Shown here piece after piece: positions 1 to 12,820 of a stretch of DNA of 64,000 nucleotides. Position numbers and translations under genes: made by a program. This DNA is from Microbacterium murale (lineage in GTDB: Bacteria; Actinomycetota; Actinomycetes; Actinomycetales; Microbacteriaceae). Numbering within the stretch: position 1 is the stretch's first letter; each line of letters opens with the position of its first letter. The stretch is from the NCBI RefSeq assembly GCF_030815955.1, contig NZ_JAUSXK010000001.1, positions 2,356,001-2,420,000 on the forward strand, given 5' to 3'. Below the pieces are notes generated by a model. The model had not been told where the DNA came from. It did not search any database and saw only the letters and a list, made by a program, of their open reading frames with translations.

Positions 1-503
1 TCGCCGTCGCGATCGAGTGCCCAATCCACGACGATGCGGTCGGTTCCGGGCCGGTCGTAGTAGTCGACGGCGTAGCCGGTGCCCTCTGCCTGGAGTGTGG
101 CGAAGTTGAAATGAGCGTTGCGCGCCAGCAGCGGATCGAAGGTCCACCGCATCCGCTGCTGCCCCCAGCCGAGCGCGACCTGCCGCTGGCCCGCCTTGAG
201 CAGGCGGCCGACGCCGCGACCCTGGTACTCGGGATCCACGACCGCGGCCTGCGAATAGTGGAACTCTGCGGCGCTGCGGTCACGGCCGGCGAAACCGTAG
301 GCGAAACCGACCAACCGGCCCTCGTCGCGCACGCCGATCGCGGAGCCACCGTTACGGGCAAGGGCGCTGACCAGGTTGGGGTTCAGTGAGAACTCGTCAT
401 GCTCGTAGCGAAAGACGCGCGTGTACAGAGCAGCCGCTTCCCGAATGGCGGCGTCGCCGACGAGGGGCTCTGCGTGCAGCGGGACGATGGGCTGGTTTGG
501 CAT
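1..503 (-). CDS. GNAT-family N-acetyltransferase (C-terminus beyond window)
   Basis: The frame is open from an ATG at 503 to the window edge, giving about 167 residues, so the C-terminus is missing. The fold is recognised from the acetyl-CoA loop QGRGVG (residues 94-99), preceded by a hydrophobic strand and VDPEY, as in predicted GNAT acetyltransferases. The substrate is unknown. The gene is divergent from an M20 peptidase gene at 613, and the space between them carries a GATACGTATC palindrome that covers this gene's start region. A TAGGAT -10 box seven bases before the ATG suggests a leaderless mRNA. Its place beside peptidases and a peptide transporter suggests acetylation of an amine or peptide; that is inference. 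Confidence 0.8.
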   Translation of the reverse strand, partial: MPNQPIVPLHAEPLVGDAAIREAAALYTRVFRYEHDEFSLNPNLVSALARNGGSAIGVRDEGRLVGFAYGFAGRDRSAAEFHYSQAAVVDPEYQGRGVGRLLKAGQRQVALGWGQQRMRWTFDPLLARNAHFNFATLQAEGTGYAVDYYDRPGTDRIVVDWALDRDG

Positions 504-516
504 GATACGTATCCTA
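504..516. promoter_or_regulatory. Palindromic operator candidate GATACGTATC over the GNAT promoter
   Basis: GATACGTATC (504-513) is a perfect 10-base palindrome directly before the GNAT start codon. It overlaps the reverse-strand -10 candidate TAGGAT (516-511). A repressor bound here would cover the -10 box and start codon. The same half-sites, GATACG and CGTATC, recur downstream of the peptidase gene at 1733-1747, and related pieces lie at 589-595 (TCGTATG) and 1819-1824 (GATACG). The binding protein is not in the window. Confidence 0.5.
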
Positions 517-612
517 TGGTGGCGGTTGTCGAACGCCAACGGTTGATTTTGCAAGTATCCGTCGCCATAGGTGTGGACCGATATGTCTCGTATGATGACG
601 CGCGGAGGAGAT

Positions 613-1725
613 ATGAACGATACGGAGCAGGCGAAGGCCCTCGTCGAACGGCTCGCGCAGTTGACACTCATCGAGTCGCCGTCGCTCGACGTCGCTGCCA
701 GCGATAAGGTCGTCGACCTGCTGGCGCACTGGTGGCGCGCAGCCGGTGCGCAGGTGCGAACGGTCCCCACATCTGCCGGGATGAACCTCGTCGCGGACAT
801 CGCCGGAGACGGCGATCCGATCCTCTTGGTGGGGCATTCGGACACGGTCTGGCCCGTCGGCACTCTGCGCAGCGACGTCCCTTGGGTCGACGACGGCGAG
901 GTCGTTCGGGGTCCTGGCGTGTACGACATGAAAAGTGGCCTGCTGGTGATGCTCGCCGCAGCCGAGCGCTTGCGCGGACGATCGCACCGGGCGTTTCGAG
1001 TGGTCGTCGTCTGCGACGAGGAGATCGGCTCTCCCACGACTTCCGGGTTGCTGCGCGAGTGCGCCGCCGGCGTGCGTGCGGCGATCGGATTCGAGTCGCC
1101 GCATCCGGATGGCGCGCTGAAAGTCGGCCGACGTGGCAGCACTCGAGTGCGTCTCGCCGTCACCGGCCGCGCATCGCACGCTGCGCTGGACCCCGAAGGT
1201 GGCGTCTCGGCGATCGACGAGCTCGTCGATCAACTGCGGATGCTGCGCACCGTCGTCGCTGATCCGAACCTGGTTTCCGAGGTGCTGTGCAATGTGGGCA
1301 CGATTCGAGGCGGCGGCAGAGCGAACGTCGTGCCCGCGGATGCGGAGGCCGAGATCGGCCTGCGATTCGTCGACCCCGCTACCGAAGCTCAGGTGCTTTC
1401 CGCCATTCGATCGCTCCAGCCCATTCGGAACGGAGCGCGACTGCAGGTCGATCTGCTTAGCCATCGCCCGGCGTGGCGGGCATCCGACGCCGACGAGGAG
1501 CTGCTCTATGCCCTCTCGGCTGCGGCGACCGGAATCGGCCAGCACATCGAAGGGCGCCCCGCTGCCGGGGCGGGAGACACGAATCTGCTGGGATCTCTGG
1601 GGGTGCCGACCGTCGACGGGTTCGGCCCGAGGGGCGGCGGTGCGCATGCGGTCGACGAGCACATCCTGACCTCCTCGCTTCTGGAACGTGTCGCGTTGCT
1701 GGAGGCTTTCCTCTCAGGAAAGTAG
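613..1725 (+). CDS. M20-family metallopeptidase (carboxypeptidase G2 / ArgE-DapE type)
   Basis: This encodes a 370-residue zinc-dependent amidohydrolase of the M20 family, which cleaves C-terminal or N-acyl amino-acid amide bonds. The metal-site pattern is complete: GHSDT (H75, D77), the bridging aspartate in VYDMKSG (D105), the catalytic pair in CDEEIG (E136, E137) and a late histidine in GAHAVDEH. There is no signal peptide, so it should be cytosolic. I chose the ATG at 613 because GGAGGAG lies just upstream; the frame stays open back to 571, but that stretch has no ribosome site. It lies ahead of the peptide-import operon and probably trims imported peptides. The exact substrate is not predictable. 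Confidence 0.88.
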   Translation: MNDTEQAKALVERLAQLTLIESPSLDVAASDKVVDLLAHWWRAAGAQVRTVPTSAGMNLVADIAGDGDPILLVGHSDTVWPVGTLRSDVPWVDDGEVVRGPGVYDMKSGLLVMLAAAERLRGRSHRAFRVVVVCDEEIGSPTTSGLLRECAAGVRAAIGFESPHPDGALKVGRRGSTRVRLAVTGRASHAALDPEGGVSAIDELVDQLRMLRTVVADPNLVSEVLCNVGTIRGGGRANVVPADAEAEIGLRFVDPATEAQVLSAIRSLQPIRNGARLQVDLLSHRPAWRASDADEELLYALSAAATGIGQHIEGRPAAGAGDTNLLGSLGVPTVDGFGPRGGGAHAVDEHILTSSLLERVALLEAFLSGK

Positions 1726-1727
1726 AC

Positions 1728-1750
1728 CCGGGATACGATTCGTATCCCGG
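1728..1750. promoter_or_regulatory. Long inverted repeat after the M20 gene (operator or terminator)
   Basis: Two perfect 11-base arms, CCGGGATACGA and its complement, flank a single T two bases after the peptidase stop codon. There is no T-run behind it, and a one-base loop is poor for an RNA hairpin, so a DNA-binding site is the better reading. The half-sites match the palindrome in front of the GNAT gene. The next 195 bases (1751-1945) hold no gene that I can support, only scattered half-sites such as TGATACG at 1818-1824. Confidence 0.45.
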
Positions 1751-1945
1751 AAGATGTTAAGCAATGCCGCATGGGCCGACCGACGCGGAATGTGTATACA
1801 TCTACCGCCACGCGTGCATGATACGCCCGAATTTACGGCCTTTTCTGTGGTGGCGTGAATTTCGTCTTCATGCCGAAACGCTGAATTTGCGTGTTTCTGA
1901 CATGTTGCAATCGTGTGGAGTTCGCGAACATCCGACACGAATGTG

Positions 1946-1974
1946 TTGACCTCAGCGCAGTCTTGCGGTTCTAT
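1946..1974 (+). promoter_or_regulatory. Promoter candidate of the peptide-import operon
   Basis: TTGACC (1946-1951) and TTCTAT (1969-1974) are separated by 17 bases, a standard sigma-70 layout. The transcript would start near 1981, about 43 bases before the binding-protein start, leaving room for the GAAAGGA ribosome site at 2007-2013. Confidence 0.45.
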
Positions 1975-2023
1975 TGCTCCATCCCAGGGTTCACGCTATC
2001 CCTTGATGAAAGGAACCCCGCAC

Positions 2024-3874
2024 ATGCCCGTATCTCATCGGAAACGTCCGCTTCGCCGCGCTGCTTTCCTGTCGATCGCAGCGTTGCTGATCGTCGCGCC
2101 TGCCGGCGCAGCGCAGGCGGCCGACTCATCGGTCGCGGCGCTGCAGGCACCCACCGAGTCCACGAGCTCACCGGAGAGCGCGACGTTCCGCATCGCGACG
2201 TCGGGCTTCGTCGACTCGTTCAACCCGTTCGTGTCGATCTATCTGACCCCGACGAACATCCTCCGGTACGTGTACGAGTACCTCGTGCAGAACGATGCGG
2301 AGGATGGTTCGCCGACCAAGGGCCTGGCGGACTCATGGGAGACAGAGGACGGGACGACGTGGACCTACACGCTGCAGGACGATCTGAAGTGGTCTGACGA
2401 CGAACCGATCACCGCTGAAGACGTCGTGTACACGTACACGCAGATGATGGAAGTCCCCGAGCTCGCGGTGGCGAACGGGAACCTGGTGACCAACTTCGAG
2501 AGCGTCGAGGCTCCCGATGAGAAGACCGTGGTCATCACGCTCAAGGGCCCGCAGGCGACCAACCCCGGCCTCGAGATTCCCGTGGTGCCCAAGCACATCT
2601 GGGAAGCGATCGACAGCCCGTCCGAGTTCGTGAACGATGCCGACGTGGTCGGATCCGGTCCGTACCTGCTCGAGTCGTACGAGGCGAACCAGCAGATCAC
2701 GCTGAAGGCGAATCCGAACTTCTGGATGGGTGAGCCGGCGGTGAAACGCATCCAGTACGTCTACTACACCAACTCCGACGCACAGGTGCAGGCGCTTCGC
2801 TCGGGTGAGGTCGACTTCGTCAGCGGTCTCACTCCGACGCAGTACGACGCGCTCGAGGGCACCGACGGGGTCACGGTCCATTCGGGGGAGGGACGTCGAT
2901 ACCACTCCTTCAGCCTCAACGTGGGTCTGATCACGCGCGACGGCGTGCCATACGGCAGCGGCAATGAAGCGCTCAAGGACGTGGAGGTGCGTCAGGCTCT
3001 CCGGCTCGGGACAGACACGAAGACGCTGCTCGACAAGGTGCTCGACGGGCAGGGCGTGCAGGCGACCAGCTTCATTCCCACGTCATTCAGCAAGTGGACG
3101 CTGCCCGCCGACGACGACGTGATCGTCGAGTACGACCCAGAGGCGGCCAAGCAGAAGCTCGACGATGCCGGCTGGGTCGTCGGCGCCGACGGCGTGCGGG
3201 AGAAGGGCGGGGTCAAGCTCGAGTTGCGCCTGCTCGTGGATGCTGAAGATATTCAGGAGGTGTCCATCGCCGAGTACTTCGTGCCGTGGATGGAAGAGAT
3301 CGGCGTCAAGATCAACGTCGAGTCAACGGACTCCGACACGATCAGCGCGAAGGCGGTCTCGGGTGACTACGACATCTACTTCAGCGGATGGAGCGTCAAC
3401 CCCGACCCGGATTACCAGCTGGGCATCAACCTGTGCACGACCCTCCCGACCGGCACCGATGGCTCGGGTGGTACCTCGCAGGACGGCTATTGCAGCCCGG
3501 AGTTCGATGCGCTTTACGAGGAGCAGCGGGCGGAGCTCGATGAGAGCAAGCGACAGGAGATCGTGCACGAGATGCTCGCTCTGAACTACACCGACACCGC
3601 TCAGATCGGCACGTGGTACGCGAATTCCCTGGAGGCCTATCGCTCTGATCGGTTCACCGGTTTCACGCTGCAGCCGAAGGACGGCGGCATCATCGCGAGC
3701 CAGGCGGGATACTGGGGCTTCCTCACGATGGAGCCCGTCGACGCTGCCTCAGCGGACGGCGGTGACGGCGCTCCCGTCGGCATGATCGTCGTCGGTGTCG
3801 TCGCCGGCGTCTTGATCATTGGCATCGTGGTGTTCCTGTTGCTCCGACGCCGACGTAGCGCGGACATAGAGTGA
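2024..3874 (+). CDS. Peptide-type ABC substrate-binding protein with a C-terminal membrane anchor
   Basis: This is a 616-residue family-5 (DppA/OppA-like) solute-binding protein. The N-terminus has an arginine-rich, hydrophobic signal peptide with a signal peptidase I site after AQA (residues 30-32), and there is no lipobox cysteine. A hydrophobic segment (about 587-607) followed by RRRRSADIE forms a C-terminal anchor. The protein is therefore held at the membrane from its C-terminus instead of by a lipid, which is unusual for this family. GAAAGGA precedes the ATG at 2024; an in-frame ATG at 2006 is the alternative. It heads the operon, and its ligand is probably a peptide or peptide-like compound, judging from the hydrolases downstream. 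Confidence 0.9.
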   Translation: MPVSHRKRPLRRAAFLSIAALLIVAPAGAAQAADSSVAALQAPTESTSSPESATFRIATSGFVDSFNPFVSIYLTPTNILRYVYEYLVQNDAEDGSPTKGLADSWETEDGTTWTYTLQDDLKWSDDEPITAEDVVYTYTQMMEVPELAVANGNLVTNFESVEAPDEKTVVITLKGPQATNPGLEIPVVPKHIWEAIDSPSEFVNDADVVGSGPYLLESYEANQQITLKANPNFWMGEPAVKRIQYVYYTNSDAQVQALRSGEVDFVSGLTPTQYDALEGTDGVTVHSGEGRRYHSFSLNVGLITRDGVPYGSGNEALKDVEVRQALRLGTDTKTLLDKVLDGQGVQATSFIPTSFSKWTLPADDDVIVEYDPEAAKQKLDDAGWVVGADGVREKGGVKLELRLLVDAEDIQEVSIAEYFVPWMEEIGVKINVESTDSDTISAKAVSGDYDIYFSGWSVNPDPDYQLGINLCTTLPTGTDGSGGTSQDGYCSPEFDALYEEQRAELDESKRQEIVHEMLALNYTDTAQIGTWYANSLEAYRSDRFTGFTLQPKDGGIIASQAGYWGFLTMEPVDAASADGGDGAPVGMIVVGVVAGVLIIGIVVFLLLRRRRSADIE

Positions 3875-3879
3875 TTTTC

Positions 3880-3909
3880 GGGCCGCCGCGGCGCATGCCG
3901 CGGCGGCCC
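3880..3909 (+). terminator. GC-rich intercistronic hairpin (binding protein / permease)
   Basis: GGGCCGCCGCGGC, a GCAT loop and the exact complement form a perfect 13-bp stem six bases after the binding-protein stop. No T-run follows. It is better read as a transcript-stabilising or attenuating hairpin that keeps the binding protein in excess over the permeases. Confidence 0.6.
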
Positions 3910-3932
3910 CTTCTACGTGCAAGGAGGTACGG

Positions 3933-4976
3933 ATGAGCGCGATGATGCCGTCCACCGGGGCTGTGATCCTGGAAGAGGAGGGGCTGGACGAGCCGCCACG
4001 TCGGGTGTCGGGTGTGCGTTATCTGCTCGGCAAACTCGGCGGCGCCGCCGTGAGCATGGTGATGGTGATCCTGCTCGGCTTCTTCGCCTTCCGCATCCTT
4101 CCCGGTGACCCCGTCGCCTCGATCACGCGGGAGCGTCAACTCAATGCCGATCAGGTCGCGCAGCTGCGGCAGCAGATGGGGCTCGACAAACCGCTGTGGC
4201 AGCAGCTCGGCGACTATCTCGTCAACGTCGCGACCCTGAGCTTCGGCGAGAGCTATGTATACAAGACGTCGGTGGCATCGCTGATCGGCGACTACTTCTG
4301 GAACACGATCCTGCTCACCGGGACCTCAGCGATCCTCGCCATCGCCCTGGGACTCTGGCTCGGTCAGAGGGCGGGCTGGAATCACGGCTCGCTGTTCGAC
4401 AAGATCACATCCGGTACGTCGCTGGTGCTGTGGTCGGTGCCGACATTCTGGCTCGGCCTGATCCTTCTGATGGTCTTCGGCGGAACCCTGCACTGGTTCC
4501 CGACCGGTGGGATGCTTTCCCCCGACCCGCCGACAGACCCGATCGGCCTGGTCGGCGACGTGGTGGCGCATATGGTGCTGCCCGTCATCACGATGGTCGC
4601 CGTGGTCTACGCCCAGTACGTCATGGTGATGCGAGCGTCGGTCATGGAGGAGAAGAGCGCCGACTACCTCACCACTGCCCGGGCGAAGGGACTACGAGAA
4701 GACCTCGTCCGACGGCGTCATGCCGTGCCCAACGCCTTGTTGCCGGCGGTCACCCTGGTGTTCATGCACATCGGGGGATTGATCGCCGGTGCGGTCACCG
4801 TCGAGACGGTCTTCAGCTGGCCTGGGCTCGGCAAGCTCACATACGAGGCGATCACGGGCCCCGATCTGCCGCTGCTGCAGGGAACGTTCGTGGTCTTCTC
4901 GGCGATCATCATCGCGATGAACCTGATCGCCGATGTGGTCTACCGATTCCTCGACCCGAGAGTGAGGCAGGCATGA
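3933..4976 (+). CDS. Peptide-type ABC transporter permease (DppB-like)
   Basis: This is a 347-residue inner-membrane permease of the DppB/OppB family with about six membrane spans. The conserved start GDPVASITRERQ and the cytoplasmic coupling loop around TTARAKGLREDLVRRRHAVPNA (residues about 248-269) identify it. AAGGAGGT at 3921-3928 sets the start at 3933. The roughly 30-residue cytosolic N-terminus is longer than usual for the family. The gene overlaps the next permease by four bases (ATGA), so the two are translationally coupled. Together they form the channel for the solute delivered by the anchored binding protein. Confidence 0.92.
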   Translation: MSAMMPSTGAVILEEEGLDEPPRRVSGVRYLLGKLGGAAVSMVMVILLGFFAFRILPGDPVASITRERQLNADQVAQLRQQMGLDKPLWQQLGDYLVNVATLSFGESYVYKTSVASLIGDYFWNTILLTGTSAILAIALGLWLGQRAGWNHGSLFDKITSGTSLVLWSVPTFWLGLILLMVFGGTLHWFPTGGMLSPDPPTDPIGLVGDVVAHMVLPVITMVAVVYAQYVMVMRASVMEEKSADYLTTARAKGLREDLVRRRHAVPNALLPAVTLVFMHIGGLIAGAVTVETVFSWPGLGKLTYEAITGPDLPLLQGTFVVFSAIIIAMNLIADVVYRFLDPRVRQA

Positions 4977-5884
4977 GCGCTCAGGCACAACTACGCTCAC
5001 CACGCGCGATGGCGTGGGAACGGCGCCGCGGCGCCTTCGCAGCGTTCTGCCGTGAGTTCGCGCGCAACCGCGCGGGGATGATCGGTGTCATCTTCCTCAT
5101 CGTCATCGTCCTGCTCGCGGCCCTCGCACCCGTGCTCGCACCTGCATCGATGCTGGATGTCACCAAGCTCGTCGATGCGCCTCGCTTCGCACCGCCGTCA
5201 TGGGAGCATCCGCTCGGCACCGATCACCAGGGACGCGAGCTCTGGGTTCGGATGCTGTGGGGCGCCCAGGTGTCGCTGCTGGTCGGATTCGCGGCGACAG
5301 CCATGTCGATGGTCATCGGCACGATCGTGGGGATCGCCGCGGGGCACTTCAGCGGGTGGTGGGGCGCGCTGCTCATGCGCGGCATCGACTTCTTCCTCGT
5401 GCTGCCATCCTTGATCCTCGCCATCGTGCTGACTTCGGTGCTCTCGCGAGGCGTGTGGACGATCGTGATCGCCATCGGGTTGACCTCGTGGGCCGGGACC
5501 GCCCGCGTCGTCCGCTCCCAGACGCTGTCGGTGGAGAGCAGGGACTACGTCGAGCGTGCCCGCGTGCTCGGCGCCGGACACTGGCACATCATCGTCAAAC
5601 ATCTGCTGCCGGCCGTGATGCCGCTGGTGCTGGCGAACACGACGCTGACGGTCGGCTCCGCGATCATCGCGGAATCCACGCTCTCCTTCCTGGGCCTCGG
5701 TGACACGACCGTGCAGTCGTGGGGCGCGATCCTTCGGAATTCCATGGACGTCTCCGCCGCCACGAGCGGCTATTGGTGGTACGTGCTCGTCCCCGGACTT
5801 GCGATCGTGCTCGTCGTACTCGCTTTCACTCTCGTCGGCCGTGCCGTGGAGAACATCGTCAACCCGACCCTGAGGAATCGTTGA
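4973..5884 (+). CDS. Peptide-type ABC transporter permease (DppC-like)
   Basis: This encodes a 303-residue permease of the DppC/OppC family. It shows the N-terminal span (residues about 36-58), the family motif HPLGTDHQGRELWVRMLWG and the EAA-type loop SRDYVERARVLGAGHWHIIVKH (about 181-201). The start is the ATG that overlaps the preceding stop codon; the frame is open far upstream, but that stretch is antisense-like shadow sequence inside the first permease. It pairs with the DppB-like protein and is followed within three bases by the ATPase gene. Confidence 0.92.
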   Translation: MSAQAQLRSPRAMAWERRRGAFAAFCREFARNRAGMIGVIFLIVIVLLAALAPVLAPASMLDVTKLVDAPRFAPPSWEHPLGTDHQGRELWVRMLWGAQVSLLVGFAATAMSMVIGTIVGIAAGHFSGWWGALLMRGIDFFLVLPSLILAIVLTSVLSRGVWTIVIAIGLTSWAGTARVVRSQTLSVESRDYVERARVLGAGHWHIIVKHLLPAVMPLVLANTTLTVGSAIIAESTLSFLGLGDTTVQSWGAILRNSMDVSAATSGYWWYVLVPGLAIVLVVLAFTLVGRAVENIVNPTLRNR

Positions 5885-5887
5885 CCC

Positions 5888-7540
5888 ATGCCGGATCTGA
5901 CATTCGAGGACGTCTCGATCACCTACCGCACGTCCGGTCGCAACGGTCGCGGTGAAGTGCCTGCGGTCACGAATGTGTCGCTCAGCCTCCCATCGGGCGG
6001 GACTCTAGGCATCGCCGGAGAATCCGGTTCGGGGAAATCGACATTGGCGATGAGCGTGCTGCGCTTGCTGCCGCGCACCGCGAAGGTTACCGGTCGCATC
6101 CTCGTCGGCGACACCGACGTGCAGACGCTGAACTTCGGTCGGTTGCGGGCGCTGCGCTGGGCCGAGGCCTCCATCGTCTTCCAGGGCGCCATGCACTCGC
6201 TGAACCCTGTGCAGAAGGTCGGTGCCCAGATCCTCGAGGCGCTGCAGCTGCATGTCAGCGACCGATGGAAGACGGAGAAGGCACGATCGGCTCGTGTCCG
6301 CGAACTGCTCACGGCGGTGGACCTGCCGCTGCCCAAGGCGGAGTCGTTTCCGCATGAGCTCTCCGGGGGGCAGAAGCAGCGGGTCATGATCGCCATGGCG
6401 CTCGCCTGCGAGCCGGACATCATCATCGCCGATGAGCCGACCACCGCTCTGGATGTGATCGTGCAGAAGCAGATCCTCGACATGATCAGTCAGCTCGTGA
6501 CCGAGCACGGCATCTCATTGCTCATGATCAGTCACGACCTCTCCGTGCTCGCCGCGGCGTGCGAGCGCATCGCGATCATGCGTGATGGTGAGCTCGTGGA
6601 ACTCGGGGACGCGCAGCAGATCTGCACTCAGCCCGCGCATCCGTACACTCGGCAGCTCGCCGAAGCGTTCCCCACCATCGGTGATCCGGCGTCGCGACTC
6701 AATCCTGTGACCCGACGGGAGCGTGCGCAGGAATCAGACGCTCCTGCCAAGGGAAAGTCCGATGAAGTGCTCCTGCATGCGCGTGGTGTCAGCGTCACCT
6801 ACCGCTCCGGCGGCAACCTCATGCGAGCGGTCAAGTCGGTCGACCTCGACATCCACCGTGGTGAGATCGTCGCATTGGTCGGTCAGTCCGGATCGGGTAA
6901 GAGCACGTTGGCGCGCACCCTGATCGGCCTCCAGGCTCCGGATGAGGGATCTGTGCTGCAGTTCCGCGGCGCAGACCTTCCGCACTCGGGCAAAGCGCTG
7001 CGCGCCTTCCGCGGTGAGGTGCAGATGGTGCTGCAGGACCCTTCCGCCGCGCTCAATCCGAAGCTCAGCGTGTACGAGTCGGTAGCGGAGGGCCTAAGGG
7101 TGCAGCGCTACCGCGGCGACGAGCGCGAGCGGGTGGCGCAGAGCCTCACCGACGCCGAGCTCACCCCGCCTGAGAAGTACTTCGCCGCTATCCCGCAGGA
7201 GCTCTCCGGCGGTCAGCGTCAGCGTGCTGTCATCGCCGGCGCGCTCGCCGTCGGCCCGCAGGTCCTGATCGCGGACGAGCCGGTCGCTTCTCTGGATGCC
7301 TCGGTGCGCGGAGAGATCCTGGCACTGCTGCTGTCACTGCGAGAGCGGCTCGGCCTCAGCGCGCTGGTCATCACACATGACCTCGGGCTCGCCTGGAACA
7401 TTGCAGACACCGTCGCGGTGATGGTCGACGGCGAGATCATCGAGCGCGGACCCACCGAGCAGGTGCTGCTCGATCCGCAGCATCCCTACACGCGGACGCT
7501 CCTGGCGGCCGCACCGAGAATAGAACGAGTCAAGGCGTGA
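5888..7540 (+). CDS. Double-domain ABC transporter ATPase (DppD-DppF fusion)
   Basis: This 550-residue cytosolic protein carries two complete nucleotide-binding domains. The first has GESGSGKST (about 45-53), LSGGQKQR and ADEPTTALD. The second has GQSGSGKST (about 336-344), LSGGQRQR and ADEPVASLD. Each ends with the HPYTR oligopeptide-family signature. One polypeptide thus supplies both ATPase halves that are separate in E. coli Dpp/Opp, and it resembles YejF-type proteins. With 2024, 3933 and 4973 it makes a complete importer. Its stop overlaps the GTG start of the next gene. Confidence 0.93.
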   Translation: MPDLTFEDVSITYRTSGRNGRGEVPAVTNVSLSLPSGGTLGIAGESGSGKSTLAMSVLRLLPRTAKVTGRILVGDTDVQTLNFGRLRALRWAEASIVFQGAMHSLNPVQKVGAQILEALQLHVSDRWKTEKARSARVRELLTAVDLPLPKAESFPHELSGGQKQRVMIAMALACEPDIIIADEPTTALDVIVQKQILDMISQLVTEHGISLLMISHDLSVLAAACERIAIMRDGELVELGDAQQICTQPAHPYTRQLAEAFPTIGDPASRLNPVTRRERAQESDAPAKGKSDEVLLHARGVSVTYRSGGNLMRAVKSVDLDIHRGEIVALVGQSGSGKSTLARTLIGLQAPDEGSVLQFRGADLPHSGKALRAFRGEVQMVLQDPSAALNPKLSVYESVAEGLRVQRYRGDERERVAQSLTDAELTPPEKYFAAIPQELSGGQRQRAVIAGALAVGPQVLIADEPVASLDASVRGEILALLLSLRERLGLSALVITHDLGLAWNIADTVAVMVDGEIIERGPTEQVLLDPQHPYTRTLLAAAPRIERVKA

Positions 7541-8512
7541 GTGGGCGCGTGGCGCGGGATGCGTACCTCGGTACGGCCCCGTTGCAGCCGGGCGACACCG
7601 TGCGCTTCGTCTCGCCGTCCGGCCCGGGCAGACCGGACAGTCTCGCTCGTGCGGTGGCGTACTACGAGGCGTGGGGCCTCAACGTCGTCGTCGGTGATCA
7701 TGTGCTGCAACCGCACCCGCGTGCGACGTACCTGGCGGGTCCGGATGACCTACGCCGACAGGATCTCGTCGAGGCATGGTCCGATCCAGATGCCGACGCG
7801 GTGGTGTGCATACGCGGAGGCTACGGCGCGATGCGCCTTCTGGACGGGATCGACTGGGCGGCGATGCGTGAGACGGCTTCACGGCGCGACGGTCGCCCGA
7901 AGCTGCTCACCGGATCATCGGACATCACGGCGTTGCATGAGGCGTTCCGCGTGCACCTCGACGTGCCTACCCTGTTCTGCCCGATGGCGGGAAACGATGT
8001 GTTTCCGCGATTCAGAGCAGGTCCGCGATGACACGCAGCGCTGGCTGTTCGAGCCTTGGGGAGGGCGCCGCATCGTCGGACCGGCGACGGAGGCGCTTGC
8101 CGAGGGCACTGCCGCCGGACTGTTCACCGGTGGCAACCTGAGCCTGCTTGCGGGCGGTCTGGGCGCACCGGAGGCAGCGGAGTCGCCGGGCGGGATCCTG
8201 TTCCTCGAGGACATCAACGAGGACATCTACCGTTTGGACGGCTTCCTGCTGCAGCTGCGGCGCTCTGGCAGGCTCAGCGCAGCATCCGGCATCGTTCTCG
8301 GTTCGTGGCACGGGTGCGCCGATCTCGTCGGCGTGCGAGCGCTGATGCACGAATACCTCGCCGACCTCGGCGTCCCCGTGCTGTGGGAGCAGGGCTTCGG
8401 TCACGACCCGAACGCCCTGAGTGTGCCGTTGAACGTGACCGGCACGATGCGTGCATCGTTCGGCGGAAGCGACCACGGTGTCTCCCTCGTGGTCGATGAG
8501 GACCCAGCATGA
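7537..8512 (+). pseudogene. LD-carboxypeptidase (S66, LdcA/MccF type), frameshifted
   Basis: The first 165 codons, from a GTG at 7537, and the rest in the next frame together make one S66 serine peptidase of about 324 residues. Family features are in order: N-terminal SPSGPG, GGYGAMRLLDGIDW, nucleophile motif GSSDITAL, FLEDINEDIYRLD, and GHDPNALSVPLN with the likely catalytic histidine. The frame breaks at about 8003-8007 (GTTTCCGCGA): removing one C restores a continuous family-like sequence (VFRDSEQV). Family members remove the terminal D-amino acid from murein tetrapeptides (LdcA) or destroy microcin C-like Trojan-horse peptides (MccF). It is either a recent pseudogene or a sequencing error; the intact downstream part favours the latter or a very young mutation. 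Confidence 0.85.
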
Positions 8513-9345
8513 GCATCCCCGTTCCCGCCCTCGACCAGCGGGCGCGCTGGTCGATCCGGATCGTCGATGCCGTCACGGGCGAAGCTCTCACCGAGCACGA
8601 ACCGGATGCCGTGTGCGAGACGGCGAGCATCGGCAAAGTGTTCCTCCTGATCGAGATCGCCAGGCGGGTGGACGACGGTCGTCTTCGTGCCGATCAGCGC
8701 GTGGATATCCCGGCAGAGCATGTCGTCGCCGATTCGGGCCTGTTGTACCGGATGCTCGATCAGCGGCTCACCGTGCACGACGCCGCACTCCTCGTGGGCG
8801 CCGTTAGCGACAACCTCGCCACCAACGCGCTCATCTCGCTATGCGGCCTCGATGAGGTGCGCGCGGTGGCCGTCGAACTCGGATACCACGACACGTCGCT
8901 GCACGATTACATCCGCAACGAACGCACATCCGAGATGCCCTGGACGCCGTCGTTCGGCACCGCACGAGAGCTTTCTGACCTGATGCGCCGGCTCGGGGCG
9001 GGCGAGATCATCTCAGCGGCCGTCAGCGAGCAGGTCCTGGTATGGCTGGCCGCGAACACCGACACCTCGATGCTCGCTGATGCGTTCCTGCTCGATCCGC
9101 TCGCCCACCCGGACGCGGAGTACCAGGGCATGCTGCTGCGGCACAAGACGGGCAGCACGAGCTTCGCCAGGATCGACATCGGTTGGCTGCAGGGACCGGC
9201 CGCCACCGTCGCGTACGCGGTCGCCGCGAACTGGAAGGATCGGCGAGAGGACCTGCGCGCCCCGGTCATCGATGCGATGCGCGCCATCGGTGAAGGCATC
9301 CGCGCCCACGTCACCGGCCGGGCTCGTGACGCGGGTGACCGGTGA
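8509..9345 (+). CDS. Cytosolic serine hydrolase, class A beta-lactamase fold (copy 1)
   Basis: This 278-residue protein has the penicillin-recognising enzyme motifs SIGK (S40-K43), SDN (100-102) and KTG (213-215). There is no signal peptide or membrane span, so it should stay in the cytosol, unlike beta-lactamases and DD-peptidases. I find no ExxLN omega-loop signature that would supply a deacylating glutamate, so antibiotic hydrolysis is doubtful. It overlaps the previous stop by four bases (ATGA) and the next gene by four (GTGA). It resembles the gene at 10391, with shared spacing of all three motifs and a common DPLAH segment. Amidase, esterase or peptidase action on an imported compound is the likely role. 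Confidence 0.85.
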   Translation: MSIPVPALDQRARWSIRIVDAVTGEALTEHEPDAVCETASIGKVFLLIEIARRVDDGRLRADQRVDIPAEHVVADSGLLYRMLDQRLTVHDAALLVGAVSDNLATNALISLCGLDEVRAVAVELGYHDTSLHDYIRNERTSEMPWTPSFGTARELSDLMRRLGAGEIISAAVSEQVLVWLAANTDTSMLADAFLLDPLAHPDAEYQGMLLRHKTGSTSFARIDIGWLQGPAATVAYAVAANWKDRREDLRAPVIDAMRAIGEGIRAHVTGRARDAGDR

Positions 9346-10394
9346 CGCAGGTCACCCATCTCGAACCCGTCTCCGGGCTCGCGTGGAGCGTCTTCCGAGG
9401 GGAGCGCGCCGAGGTCATGCGCGCTCTCGGTCGGGAGCATGCCGACGCGATCCACGCGTTCCGCTCGCTGCCCGGTGGATCGTGGGAAGCGCAGGTGCGC
9501 CGGGCCGACGGCGTCGCGGCCGAGCGGCTGGACGCCGTCATCGCGTCGACACGAGAGCTGCTGCCCGTCGAATCCCAGGAGCTCGCCTGGATCGCGGAGG
9601 GCGCGGGCATCGCGGAACGAGACATGTGGGCGCGCAACCTTCGCGGAGACCTGGGGCGTGATGGCACAGGGTGCAGCGACATCGCGTTCACCACGGATGC
9701 CGGCGTCGTGATGGGCCACAACGAGGACGGCGACGGCGAACTGCGCGAGCAGATTCGGCTGGTCACGCTCGTCATCGAGGGCGACCCCGCAATGACATCG
9801 GCCTGGTACCCGGGAATGCTGCCATCCAACGCATTCGTGACGACGTCGGTCGGCCTCGCCTTCGGCATGGACCATGTCCCGGTGGTCACCGCGCAGACAG
9901 CCGGTGCCGGTCGGCACTTCGTCGCTCGGCATGCGCAGCGCCAGCCCACTGGGGAGGCGGCTCGCGGCGCGCTGTCCCGGGTTCCCTGCGCCGGCGGTTT
10001 CGCATTCGATGTCGCCGACGCCGCAGGGCGAGCCGACCTCATCGAGAATGCCGCGGGCCATGTCGCCGCGACGACGGGCCGCTACCAGCACACGAACCAC
10101 CTGCGTCTGCTCGACGGCACGAGTGATGGCCTCGCCGTGTGCGACGGCGACGAATGGCTCGGCGAGAGCATGCACCGACTGAGCGTGCTTCGCGGGTGCG
10201 GAACACCGACGAGCGCGCAGGATGTGCTCACCGCGCTGCGCACGCCCGGCGTGCTCGGTCGCTCGGACGATCTGTGGACGTTCGTGACCACTGTGGTCGA
10301 CACGGCGATCGATGAGGTCGTCCTGCAAGGGAGCGGCGCGCCGTGGCGCGGTAGATGGAGCGCGTTCGCGCGTGGAGAGCGAGTGCAACTGTGA
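9342..10394 (+). CDS. C45-family autoproteolytic acyltransferase/hydrolase
   Basis: This 350-residue protein resembles acyl-CoA:6-aminopenicillanate acyltransferase-type N-terminal-nucleophile hydrolases. GTGCSDIAF puts the predicted self-cleavage site at G110/C111, freeing Cys111 as nucleophile. GHNED (125-129) and the QHTNHL segment are further family landmarks. Known members form or cleave amide bonds between acyl groups and amino compounds. It starts at a GTG overlapping the stop of the first serine hydrolase and ends overlapping the GTG of the second, so the three hydrolases are translationally coupled. The substrate here is unknown; an N-acyl or peptide-like amide brought in by the transporter is the natural guess. 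Confidence 0.85.
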   Translation: MTQVTHLEPVSGLAWSVFRGERAEVMRALGREHADAIHAFRSLPGGSWEAQVRRADGVAAERLDAVIASTRELLPVESQELAWIAEGAGIAERDMWARNLRGDLGRDGTGCSDIAFTTDAGVVMGHNEDGDGELREQIRLVTLVIEGDPAMTSAWYPGMLPSNAFVTTSVGLAFGMDHVPVVTAQTAGAGRHFVARHAQRQPTGEAARGALSRVPCAGGFAFDVADAAGRADLIENAAGHVAATTGRYQHTNHLRLLDGTSDGLAVCDGDEWLGESMHRLSVLRGCGTPTSAQDVLTALRTPGVLGRSDDLWTFVTTVVDTAIDEVVLQGSGAPWRGRWSAFARGERVQL

Positions 10395-11206
10395 ACATCG
10401 GCTTCGCGGAACTGGAGCGAGACTTCCCCGGGCTGTCCCTCTCGGCGCTCGCGGTGGACATCGACTCGGGGCTGGAGGTCTTCCGGCACCATCCCGAACG
10501 GGTGCTCGACACGGCGAGCGTCGGCAAGATCTTTCTGCTGCATCGTCTGCTCACCGAGACAGACAGGGGTGAGCGCAGTCTCGAGGACAGGGTGACCCGT
10601 CGCCCCGTCGAACAGATCGACAACTCCGGGATCTGGTACCTGCTGCAGCAGGAATCGTTGACGCTCTACGACGTGGCGGCGCTCATCGGCGCGACGAGCG
10701 ACAACGCGGCGACCAACACGTTGTGCCGAGTCATCGGACTGGACGAGGTGCACGCGCACACCCGTGCGCTCGGCTACGCCCAGTCGGGCCTCGACGACAT
10801 CGTGCGATGGCCGCTGCCGCCCGGAGCTCCGCGGACACTCTCGCACGCCAACGCGGAGGAGCTGGTGCGGTTCGTGCGGCGCACTGCCGATGGGGACGAT
10901 CTCAGTGCCGCCTCGAGCGACACGATGCAGCGCTGGCTCGGTGCCGGGATGGACCTGTCGATGGTCGCCTCCGCTTTCGGTCTCGATCCACTCGCGCACT
11001 ATTATTTCGACCGCGATGTGTGGCTGTGGAACAAGACCGGCACGATCAGCACGGTGCGCGCCGACGTCGGATTGGTGATGTCGCCGGCGAGGAGGTTGGC
11101 GTACGCCGTGCTCATCAATTGGGAACGCGGTGCACCTGCGCGCGACCGTGCGCTCGATGTGATGCGGCAGGCGGGAGTCGCGCTCCGCGCCGAGTTGGAG
11201 CCGTGA
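10391..11206 (+). CDS. Cytosolic serine hydrolase, class A beta-lactamase fold (copy 2)
   Basis: This 271-residue protein is a paralogue of the gene at 8509. SVGK (S43-K46), SDN (103-105) and KTG (215-217) keep the same spacing, and both contain AF-LDPLAH. It also lacks a signal peptide and a recognisable omega-loop glutamate. I chose the GTG at 10391 because it overlaps the C45 stop codon; an ATG at 10355 would add 12 residues buried inside that gene. It closes the peptide operon. Two diverged copies in one operon suggest two related substrates or a heteromeric enzyme; neither can be decided from sequence. Confidence 0.85.
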   Translation: MNIGFAELERDFPGLSLSALAVDIDSGLEVFRHHPERVLDTASVGKIFLLHRLLTETDRGERSLEDRVTRRPVEQIDNSGIWYLLQQESLTLYDVAALIGATSDNAATNTLCRVIGLDEVHAHTRALGYAQSGLDDIVRWPLPPGAPRTLSHANAEELVRFVRRTADGDDLSAASSDTMQRWLGAGMDLSMVASAFGLDPLAHYYFDRDVWLWNKTGTISTVRADVGLVMSPARRLAYAVLINWERGAPARDRALDVMRQAGVALRAELEP

Positions 11207-11299: not shown

Positions 11300-12820
11300 A
11301 TGACCGCCGCGTCCGCAGATCAGCCAGACGACCCGTCCGCCGAGGACATTCACGAGCAGAAGGCCGTCCGTCTCGCCAAGCGCGAGCGGCTCATCGCGCA
11401 GCGCACGGATGCCGCGGGCGGCGCATTCCCGGTCGCCGTTCCTGTGACACACACCATTCCGGCGCTGCGCGCCGAGTACGGCGAGCTCGAGGCCGGCGCG
11501 GAGACCGGCGTTGTGGTGGGCGTGGCCGGACGCGTGGTCTTCAGCCGCAACACCGGCAAGCTCTGCTTCGCAACCCTTCAGGCAGGCGACGGCTCTCGCA
11601 TCCAGGCGATGATCTCGCTCGCGGAGGTCGGCGAGGAGTCGCTGGCGCGTTGGAAGGAATTCGTCGATCTGGGCGACCATGTCTTCGTGCACGGGCAGGT
11701 CATCTCCAGCCGCCGAGGTGAGCTGTCGATCATGGCCGACGAATGGGCCATCGCGTCGAAGGCGATCCTGCCGCTGCCGAACGCCTACTCCGAGCTCAGT
11801 GAGGAAGGCCGGGTGCGCAGCCGCTATCTCGACCTCATCGTCCGTGAGCAGGCACGCACCACGGTGCGCGCCCGTGCCGCCGTGAACGCGAGCCTTCGCG
11901 CGACATTCGGCACACACGAGTATCTCGAGGTGGAGACCCCGATGCTGCAGGTGCAGCATGGCGGAGCATCCGCTCGTCCGTTCATCACGCACTCCAACGC
12001 GTTCGACACGGAGCTGTACCTGCGCATAGCGCCGGAGCTCTACCTCAAGCGCGCCGTCGTCGGCGGCATCGAGCGCGTGTTCGAGATCAACCGCAACTTC
12101 CGCAACGAGGGCGCCGATTCCACGCACAGCCCCGAGTTCGCGATGCTGGAGGCGTACCAGGCCTACGGCGACTACAACCAGATGGCCGAGCTCACCCAAG
12201 AGCTCGTGCAGCAGGCGGCGATCGCTGTCGCGGGCTCCACCACCGTCACCTGGGCGGATGGCACCGAGTACGACCTCGGTGGCGAGTGGGACCGGATCTC
12301 GATGTATGAATCGTTGTCCGAGGCCGCTGGCCGTACCTTCACTCCCGATGACGCGGTGGAGGACCTCATCGCCTTCGCCGAGGCGAACGGCGTGGACGTC
12401 CCATCGCATGCCATCCACGGCAAGCTCATCGAGGAACTGTGGGAGCACTTCGTGAAGGGCGACCTCGTGCGCCCCACGTTCGTGATGGACTTCCCCGTCG
12501 ACACCTCGCCCCTGGTGCGCGAGCACCGTTCGATCTCGGGCGTCGTGGAGAAGTGGGATCTGTACATCCGCGGGTTCGAGTTGGCCACGGGGTACTCCGA
12601 GCTCGTCGACCCAGTCATCCAGCGCGAGCGCTTCGTCGAACAGGCGAAACTCGCCGCGAGCGGTGATGTCGAGGCCATGCGTGTGGACGAGGAGTTCCTG
12701 CGTGCGCTGGAGCACGGCATGCCGCCTTCGGGTGGCATGGGGATGGGCATCGACCGCCTGCTCATGGCGATCACCGGGCTCGGCATCCGCGAGACGATCC
12801 TCTTCCCGCTGGTCAAGTAA
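11300..12820 (+). CDS. lysS: Lysyl-tRNA synthetase, class II
   Basis: This 506-residue enzyme charges tRNA-Lys. The order is an N-terminal helix, an OB-fold anticodon-binding domain (about 65-165, with [18 protein letters not shown]) and the class II catalytic core. Class II motifs are visible: RSRYLDLI near residue 175, [11 protein letters not shown] with SPEFAMLE near 258-285, and the C-terminal [11 protein letters not shown]. Length and composition match bacterial LysS. AAGGAG precedes the ATG at 11300. It is monocistronic and convergent with the DUF4192 gene. Confidence 0.96.

Follow-up and report, generated by a model that had tools for sequence, protein, structure and literature searches.

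The window analysed here is a stretch of 64,000 nucleotides from the 4.11 Mb genome of Microbacterium murale (G000:C1:2356001-2420000), which carries at its left end an operon for a peptide-type ABC importer and several hydrolases, preceded by the first part of a divergent operon headed by a GNAT N-acyltransferase. Judged from sequence, these two operons probably constitute a single co-regulated locus for the import of peptides containing D-residues, of which peptidoglycan stem peptides are the most likely; after hydrolysis in the cytosol, the D-amino acids would be salvaged in the L form. The parts are of known kinds; their combination appears to be undescribed.

Organization of the two operons

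The importer-side operon encodes an M20 metallohydrolase, a family-5 solute-binding protein (SBP), two permeases (PermB and PermC), a fused double ATPase, an S66 LD-carboxypeptidase, and two class-A-beta-lactamase-like serine hydrolases of family PF13354 (BLA1 and BLA2), between which lies a C45 acyltransferase/hydrolase. This gene order, all on the plus strand, had been proposed in a sequence-only reading of the window and was borne out by Pfam and NCBIfam. The importer is complete, and from PermB onward the genes are tightly packed: start and stop codons overlap at PermB/PermC, ATPase/S66, S66/BLA1, BLA1/C45, and C45/BLA2, while gaps of 3, 58, and 298 bases separate PermC from the ATPase, SBP from PermB, and M20 from SBP, respectively. 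By inspection, no signal sequence was seen on any hydrolase of the window. The SBP, also by inspection, possesses an N-terminal signal region and a C-terminal apparent transmembrane helix followed by an Arg-rich tail, with no lipobox.

The divergent operon lies mostly outside the window, with GNAT as its first gene. The adjoining upstream stretch (L003) encodes on its minus strand GNAT, a SIS-domain protein, an NSAR-type enolase, an aminotransferase IV, a fusion of an M19 dipeptidase with a glutamine amidotransferase (GATase) domain, and an S12 hydrolase (PF00144). The sequence-only reading had placed a divergent GNAT gene upstream of the importer; the gene is indeed present on the minus strand at the left edge, but the conserved operon that it heads had gone unnoticed.

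A predicted D- to L-amino acid route

The enolase exceeds the TIGR01928 cutoff (284 bits vs 200.65); among solved structures, N-acylamino acid racemases are closest to it. The motifs KLK, DAN, EQP, DES, and KVSR are invariant in 15/15 sequences; these we take to supply the catalytic Lys pair, the three metal-binding acidic residues, and the Arg tied to NSAR activity. The protein scored below the cutoffs of the epimerase equivalogs NF041118 (64.5 of 500 bits) and PRK15129 (48 of 343). A role as a menaquinone enzyme was considered and dropped, since the genome has its own MenC, which is above cutoff (PRK02901, 470.6 bits).

Together, GNAT, NSAR, and M20 are reminiscent of the established route by which D-amino acids are converted irreversibly to the L form. 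Sakai et al. are said to have described this NSAR route in 2006 from a Geobacillus operon. As in that route, genes for a GNAT, an NSAR/OSBS enolase, and an M20 enzyme are clustered; unlike it, they stand here within a peptide importer/hydrolase locus, M20 is in the opposite operon, and the activities are predicted. The association of GNAT with NSAR outside the first locus is backed by three of four second loci. In the same genome (L078; G000:C1:1640000-1653000) a GNAT gene (35% identity) precedes an NSAR that is split over two frames and matches in two pieces (30% and 49%), in the company of a peptide importer, an SBP, weak similarity to part of BLA1 (41 bits), and a PF00144-type match. In genome G025 GNAT (38%) stands directly before an NSAR of 45% identity, and in G199 about 2.6 kb before one of 45%. 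An S9-type peptidase and an amidohydrolase, both named by inspection, are also encoded in L078.

The M19 domain finds its best PDB match in the dipeptidase 3id7 (346 bits), which we take to be the Sco3058 enzyme, with a preference for L,D-dipeptides. The title of one paper ranks Sco3058 nearest to human renal dipeptidase among bacterial homologues. The GATase domain is a class-I glutamine amidotransferase with similarity to Peptidase_C26. The fusion of M19 with GATase is shared by this genome and its nearer relatives; Pseudoclavibacter, Gordonia, and one same-genus group (L058-L061, L101-L114) encode the two separately.

Three further observations concern this operon. Pfam finds no DNA-binding domain in the SIS-domain protein (L003 9056-9736), which we liken to the sugar-binding half of RpiR/MurR-type regulators. 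The aminotransferase IV is left without a role, because its best model is aminodeoxychorismate lyase, at 266.9 bits just below the cutoff of 273, a second similar copy exists in the genome (259.4 bits), and the gene is present in 29 of the 41 loci compared below. Beyond S12, a second family-5 SBP, 26-31% identical, is found in 13 of the 14 loci L101-L114, all of which lack C45.

Conservation and linkage

A profile scan of contigs from 84,980 species with the C45 alignment yielded 31 loci. Twelve loci (L021-L032) carry a C45 at least 55% identical to that of the window and, as far as the stretches extend, keep the window's arrangement of importer, S66, and two PF13354 genes. They come from Microbacterium and also from Galactobacter, Pseudoclavibacter, Acidipropionibacterium, and Gordonia; conservation beyond close relatives, which the earlier reading had set as a test of itself, is thus observed. 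An NSAR ortholog is present in 15/15 C45-carrying genomes, M. murale included, and adjoins the divergent M20 in 13/14 C45-carrying relatives, the Galactobacter stretch stopping inside the SIS gene.

C45 occurs in 8/295 same-genus, 5/398 same-family, and 1/394 same-class genomes, M. murale being counted each time and being the only same-class carrier. NSAR of at least 63% identity is found in 33/295 same-genus genomes, among them all eight C45 carriers, and some NSAR relative (E 1e-70 or better) in 206/295. In 24 of the 25 same-genus NSAR loci without C45, GNAT-SIS-NSAR-M19 faces M20 through BLA1.

The combined comparison covers 41 loci, 16 found via C45 and 25 via NSAR; its counts for these two genes are not prevalences. 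NSAR and SIS are each present in 40, M19 in 39, GATase in 37, and S12 in 36; those for the window genes are in Table 1. Both halves lie on one contig in 36/41, the others being G185, Galactobacter, and G389 (contig ends), A. thoenii, and G225. The occurrence of S66 and BLA1 with the importer ATPase in 40/41 is more than chance. C45, by comparison, lies outside the core, inserted between BLA1 and BLA2 in some loci only. The earlier description of four coupled hydrolases was overstated, C45 being present in 8/33 same-genus NSAR loci and BLA2 in 34/41 loci. Split frames were flagged for three genes of G206, seven of G278 (including S66), M20 of A. thoenii, and BLA1 of G149. A plasmid search with C45 gave 48 records; identity was below 60% in all of them, and in none did the match extend over 80% of the query.

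Additional genes interrupt or follow the set in some relatives. In three same-genus genomes (L016 9981-10682, L020, and L021), BLA1 and C45 are separated by a gene with a Rossmann-like/DUF2520 product (Pfam, on the L016 copy). In L021, a metagenome-assembled genome, the interval from BLA2 to lysS contains genes for a GH20 beta-N-acetylhexosaminidase and a LacI-family regulator (5086-8910), which are perhaps tied to cell-wall sugar use.

A paired repeat between the operons

The GNAT-M20 intergenic region contains two direct copies of GATAYGTWTCSTA. The repeat was counted over 39 loci, Galactobacter and G389, where the sequence ends short, having been set aside together with twelve second stretches of genomes already counted. 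Two same-strand copies with at most two mismatches occur in 32/39 of these loci, which share descent and are not independent, and at least one copy in 38/39; in mononucleotide shuffles of the same intergenic sequences two copies were never found and at least one in 0.8%. The spacing is 76-77 bp in 29/32 and 87 bp in 3/32, a difference of about one helical turn. When the pattern was widened at one position to fit copy 2, exactly two matches were found genome-wide, both of them here, and the reversed control gave none. Because copy 1 abuts the GNAT start codon, its conservation may be partly that of promoter sequence. From this conservation we infer that the pair is a candidate operator through which both operons would be switched together.

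The S66 gene and microcin C immunity

In M. murale the S66 gene lies in two frames, with the N-terminal domain (PF02016) at 7537-8031 and the C-terminal domain (PF17676) in the other frame to 8512; the changeover falls between approximately 8000 and 8020. The earlier reading had not noticed this split; the start/stop overlaps that it described are present from ATPase/S66 to C45/BLA2. The gene is a single open frame in 14/14 C45-carrying relatives and is also split in the C45-less relative G278, a genome with many split genes. The break in M. murale may be natural or may be an assembly error. Both domains are present, and GSSD, LED, and GH, presumably the motifs of the catalytic Ser, Glu, and His, are invariant in 15 rows when the domains are aligned separately.

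In microcin C immunity MccF is an S66 enzyme and MccE a GNAT. The sequence-only reading had accordingly entertained a sink for imported microcin-C-like compounds, and an S66 enzyme, a GNAT, and an Opp/Yej-like importer do occur together here. By sequence score rather than by tree, however, the intact S66 from G115 is nearest to murein tetrapeptide carboxypeptidase (98 bits), the best MccF-like entry scoring 56. None of the six PDB matches of GNAT is named MccE, structures of which have presumably been deposited there, and GNAT pairs with a racemase both here and in second loci. Moreover, it makes little sense for an importer to share an operon with an immunity gene against what it imports, and NSAR, M19, and the other conserved genes would be left unexplained. 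That the locus confers immunity to Trojan-horse peptide-nucleotides, with S66 as MccF and GNAT as MccE, we thus consider extremely unlikely.

Beta-lactamase-like and C45 hydrolases

The SxxK, SDN, and KTG motifs are invariant in BLA1 and BLA2 (15 and 14 rows). The omega-loop region of BLA2 lacks a Glu; in BLA1, E138 is invariant, but its equivalence to Glu166 is ambiguous. At 56.5 and 43.7 bits, respectively, BLA1 and BLA2 do not reach the cutoff of 200 for the class A model NF033103. C45 exceeds the NF040521 cutoff (134.3 bits vs 85), and its Gly-Cys, which contains the autoproteolytic nucleophile, is invariant in 14 and 19 rows; G206 was left out of the BLA2 and C45 alignments. The predicted structure of C45 (pLDDT 94.1) has as its best Foldseek match 2x1c, an isopenicillin N acyltransferase fold (TM 0.77).

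These similarities would suit a pathway of beta-lactam catabolism, in which class A/C-like enzymes would open the ring after import, C45 would carry out a deacylation, and M19 a cleavage. Ring opening could draw on two class-A-like proteins and a third from the PF00144 beta-lactamase family, C45 has the fold just named, and M19 is of the renal dipeptidase type. The failure of both PF13354 proteins to reach the class A cutoff speaks against such a pathway, as do the missing omega-loop Glu of BLA2 and the absence of C45 from 25/33 same-genus NSAR loci, and D- to L-racemization would have no obvious role in it. We regard it as very unlikely.

The importer

Matches to Nik/Cnt models were obtained for the SBP and permeases as well, and the ATPase exceeds the cutoffs of both NikD and NikE, as might be expected of an importer for nickel, opines, or another metal chelate with unrelated neighbors. 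No Nik/Cnt cutoff is reached by the SBP or the permeases, however, and the ATPase matches 200 families. Given also the steady linkage of S66 and BLA1, this explanation is scarcely credible.

Table 1. Features of the locus and its flank within the window. Loci counts refer to the 41 loci described in the text.
Feature	Position	Strand	Remarks
GNAT N-acyltransferase, N-terminal part	1..503	-	Runs past the left window edge; full gene L003 9733-10503; 39/41 loci
Repeat copy 1, GATACGTATCCTA	504..516	+	Abuts GNAT start codon; candidate operator/promoter element
Repeat copy 2, GATATGTCTCGTA	580..592	+	76 bp start to start from copy 1; 20 bp upstream of M20 start codon
M20 metallohydrolase, candidate N-acyl-L-amino-acid deacylase	613..1725	+	Pfam, NCBIfam; 39/41 loci
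Family-5 solute-binding protein (SBP)	2024..3874	+	38/41 loci
ABC permease PermB, OppB/DppB type	3933..4976	+	Pfam, NCBIfam; permeases 38/41 loci
ABC permease PermC, OppC/DppC type	4973..5884	+	Pfam, NCBIfam
Fused double ATPase of peptide importer	5888..7540	+	Pfam, NCBIfam; 40/41 loci
S66 LD-carboxypeptidase, LdcA-like	7537..8512	+	Two frames in this genome; 40/41 loci
BLA1, class-A-beta-lactamase-like serine hydrolase (PF13354)	8509..9345	+	40/41 loci
C45 autoproteolytic acyltransferase/hydrolase	9342..10394	+	Optional member; NCBIfam; 16/41 loci
BLA2, second PF13354 serine hydrolase	10355..11206	+	No omega-loop Glu; 34/41 loci
lysS (named by inspection)	11300..12820	+	Flank, outside the locus; in the fetched stretch of 12/41 loci, all same genus

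Nature of the substrate

Scavenging of peptides containing D-amino acids, such as muropeptides, was the other possibility raised by the sequence-only reading, and it gains support from the NSAR-type racemase, the M19 relative of 3id7, and the presence of GNAT with M20. As a single substrate, peptidoglycan stem peptides would fit best, since their breakdown calls for cleavage of the types of bond that these enzymes address. The same logic of import and salvage might instead serve D-residue peptides from outside the cell wall, including nonribosomal antibiotics, poly-gamma-glutamate fragments, and N-acyl peptides, taken up as food or for detoxification. C45 and M20 belong to N-acyl/amide hydrolase families, GATase resembles Peptidase_C26, and the optional nature of C45 is what would be expected if substrates differed between strains. 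The scanned locus proteins, moreover, include no known type of stem-peptide endopeptidase. On the other side, S66 is part of the core and is nearest to a murein tetrapeptide carboxypeptidase, and the relative of M19 is of the renal dipeptidase type, with a preference for L,D-dipeptides. Substrates from outside the cell wall are, on balance, unlikely.

Several observations weigh against a stem-peptide salvage locus. Neither an NlpC/P60 nor an MpaA-type gamma-D-glutamyl endopeptidase was found among the scanned locus proteins, the rest of the genome not having been searched. The SBP gave a poor predicted model (pLDDT 57.7), and D-residue peptides are its presumed ligand. GNAT has no NCBIfam match and is assigned at the family level; of the 36 NCBIfam families matched by M20, the 25 listed all have cutoffs that it fails to reach, and among solved structures it stands closest to carboxypeptidase G2 and not to a desuccinylase. 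The families PF13354, M20, and S12 are broad. S66 is split in this very strain, which has no intact copy in the locus and a further S66 gene at 3.107 Mb.

Other points concern linkage and regulation. No GNAT is encoded near the second NSAR of G071; G225, a diverged variant, lacks S66 and both PF13354 genes; and in A. thoenii the NSAR-SIS-GNAT-M20 half lies inside another contig, apart from the importer half, with no SBP in the 3.7 kb fetched beyond M20. A. thoenii is thus a true exception to the operon linkage and not an effect of a contig end. The presence of NSAR in 40/41 loci is partly a product of selection. Seven of the 39 loci, including that of the close relative G115, have no second repeat at two mismatches, and the repeat counts are partly circular, the consensus having been drawn from the sequences counted; the spacing is less so.

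Within the locus, the role of endopeptidase might fall to GATase, to M20, or to a C39-like peptidase that some loci encode. The gene for the last (Peptidase_C39_2 by Pfam on the L016 copy, L016 854-2380, minus strand) lies on the opposite strand between M20 and SBP in 14/41 loci.

Proposed pathway and comparison with known systems

The route that we favor, salvage of stem peptides, would begin with import of the peptide by the SBP, the two permeases, and the fused ATPase, which form an importer by family and for which this substrate is presumed. The S66, PF13354, and S12 hydrolases would then take off terminal D-residues, S66 acting as an LD-carboxypeptidase to judge from its similarity to LdcA. 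M19 would cleave L,D-dipeptides such as L-Ala-D-Glu, and GATase may remove the amide of D-isoglutamine or open the gamma-glutamyl bond. Where present, C45 would remove or transfer an N-acyl group. Finally, the freed D-amino acids would be N-acylated by GNAT, racemized by NSAR, and deacylated by M20, giving the L forms irreversibly, as in the Geobacillus pathway.

E. coli and B. subtilis epimerize L-Ala-D-Glu. It is possible, though we put this at somewhat below an even chance, that the present locus represents a third way of recycling peptidoglycan peptides, in which hydrolysis in the cytosol is complete and takes the place of this epimerization, class-A-beta-lactamase-like enzymes have been repurposed as intracellular D-peptide hydrolases, every freed D-amino acid is rescued in the L form, and one paired operator switches the whole.

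The dppB-E/ykfA-D stem-peptide locus of B. subtilis likewise has a peptide ABC importer adjoining an S66 LD-carboxypeptidase, YkfA, with cytosolic processing (PMC2954226). Relative to that account, the YkfB epimerase equivalog and the NlpC/P60 protein YkfC were not found in the locus proteins scanned here; their place is taken by an M19 dipeptidase together with the NSAR route, and PF13354 and C45 are additions. Agrobacterium YejBEF-YepA is also a peptide ABC importer for peptidoglycan fragments; unlike the SBP here, its peptidoglycan-binding protein YepA is encoded away from the transporter, and the accessible portion of that report mentions no NSAR-type locus (PMC9790009). The DgcN-DgcA pathway converts D-Glu to L-Glu in two steps (PMC10845958). 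DgcA is by its NCBIfam name an N-acetyl-D-Glu racemase, but the NSAR studied here scores 88.5 bits against the DgcA model, the cutoff of which is 400. In the open-licence literature on NSAR, muropeptide or LD-carboxypeptidase import, ykf/dpp, DgcN-DgcA, and actinobacterial recycling, no description of this locus was recognized among the matches listed, as judged by titles and the beginnings of abstracts, which is weak evidence of novelty.

Implications

The locus is compact, is found in at least five genera, and is marked by a distinctive paired repeat, which makes the hypothesis directly testable. If it is true, NSAR enzymes, so far familiar chiefly through biochemical and biocatalytic work, would gain a concrete physiological setting, and a function would be found for cytosolic proteins with the beta-lactamase fold, a group readily mistaken for resistance genes in annotation. 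It would also add an actinobacterial route for the recycling of peptidoglycan peptides.

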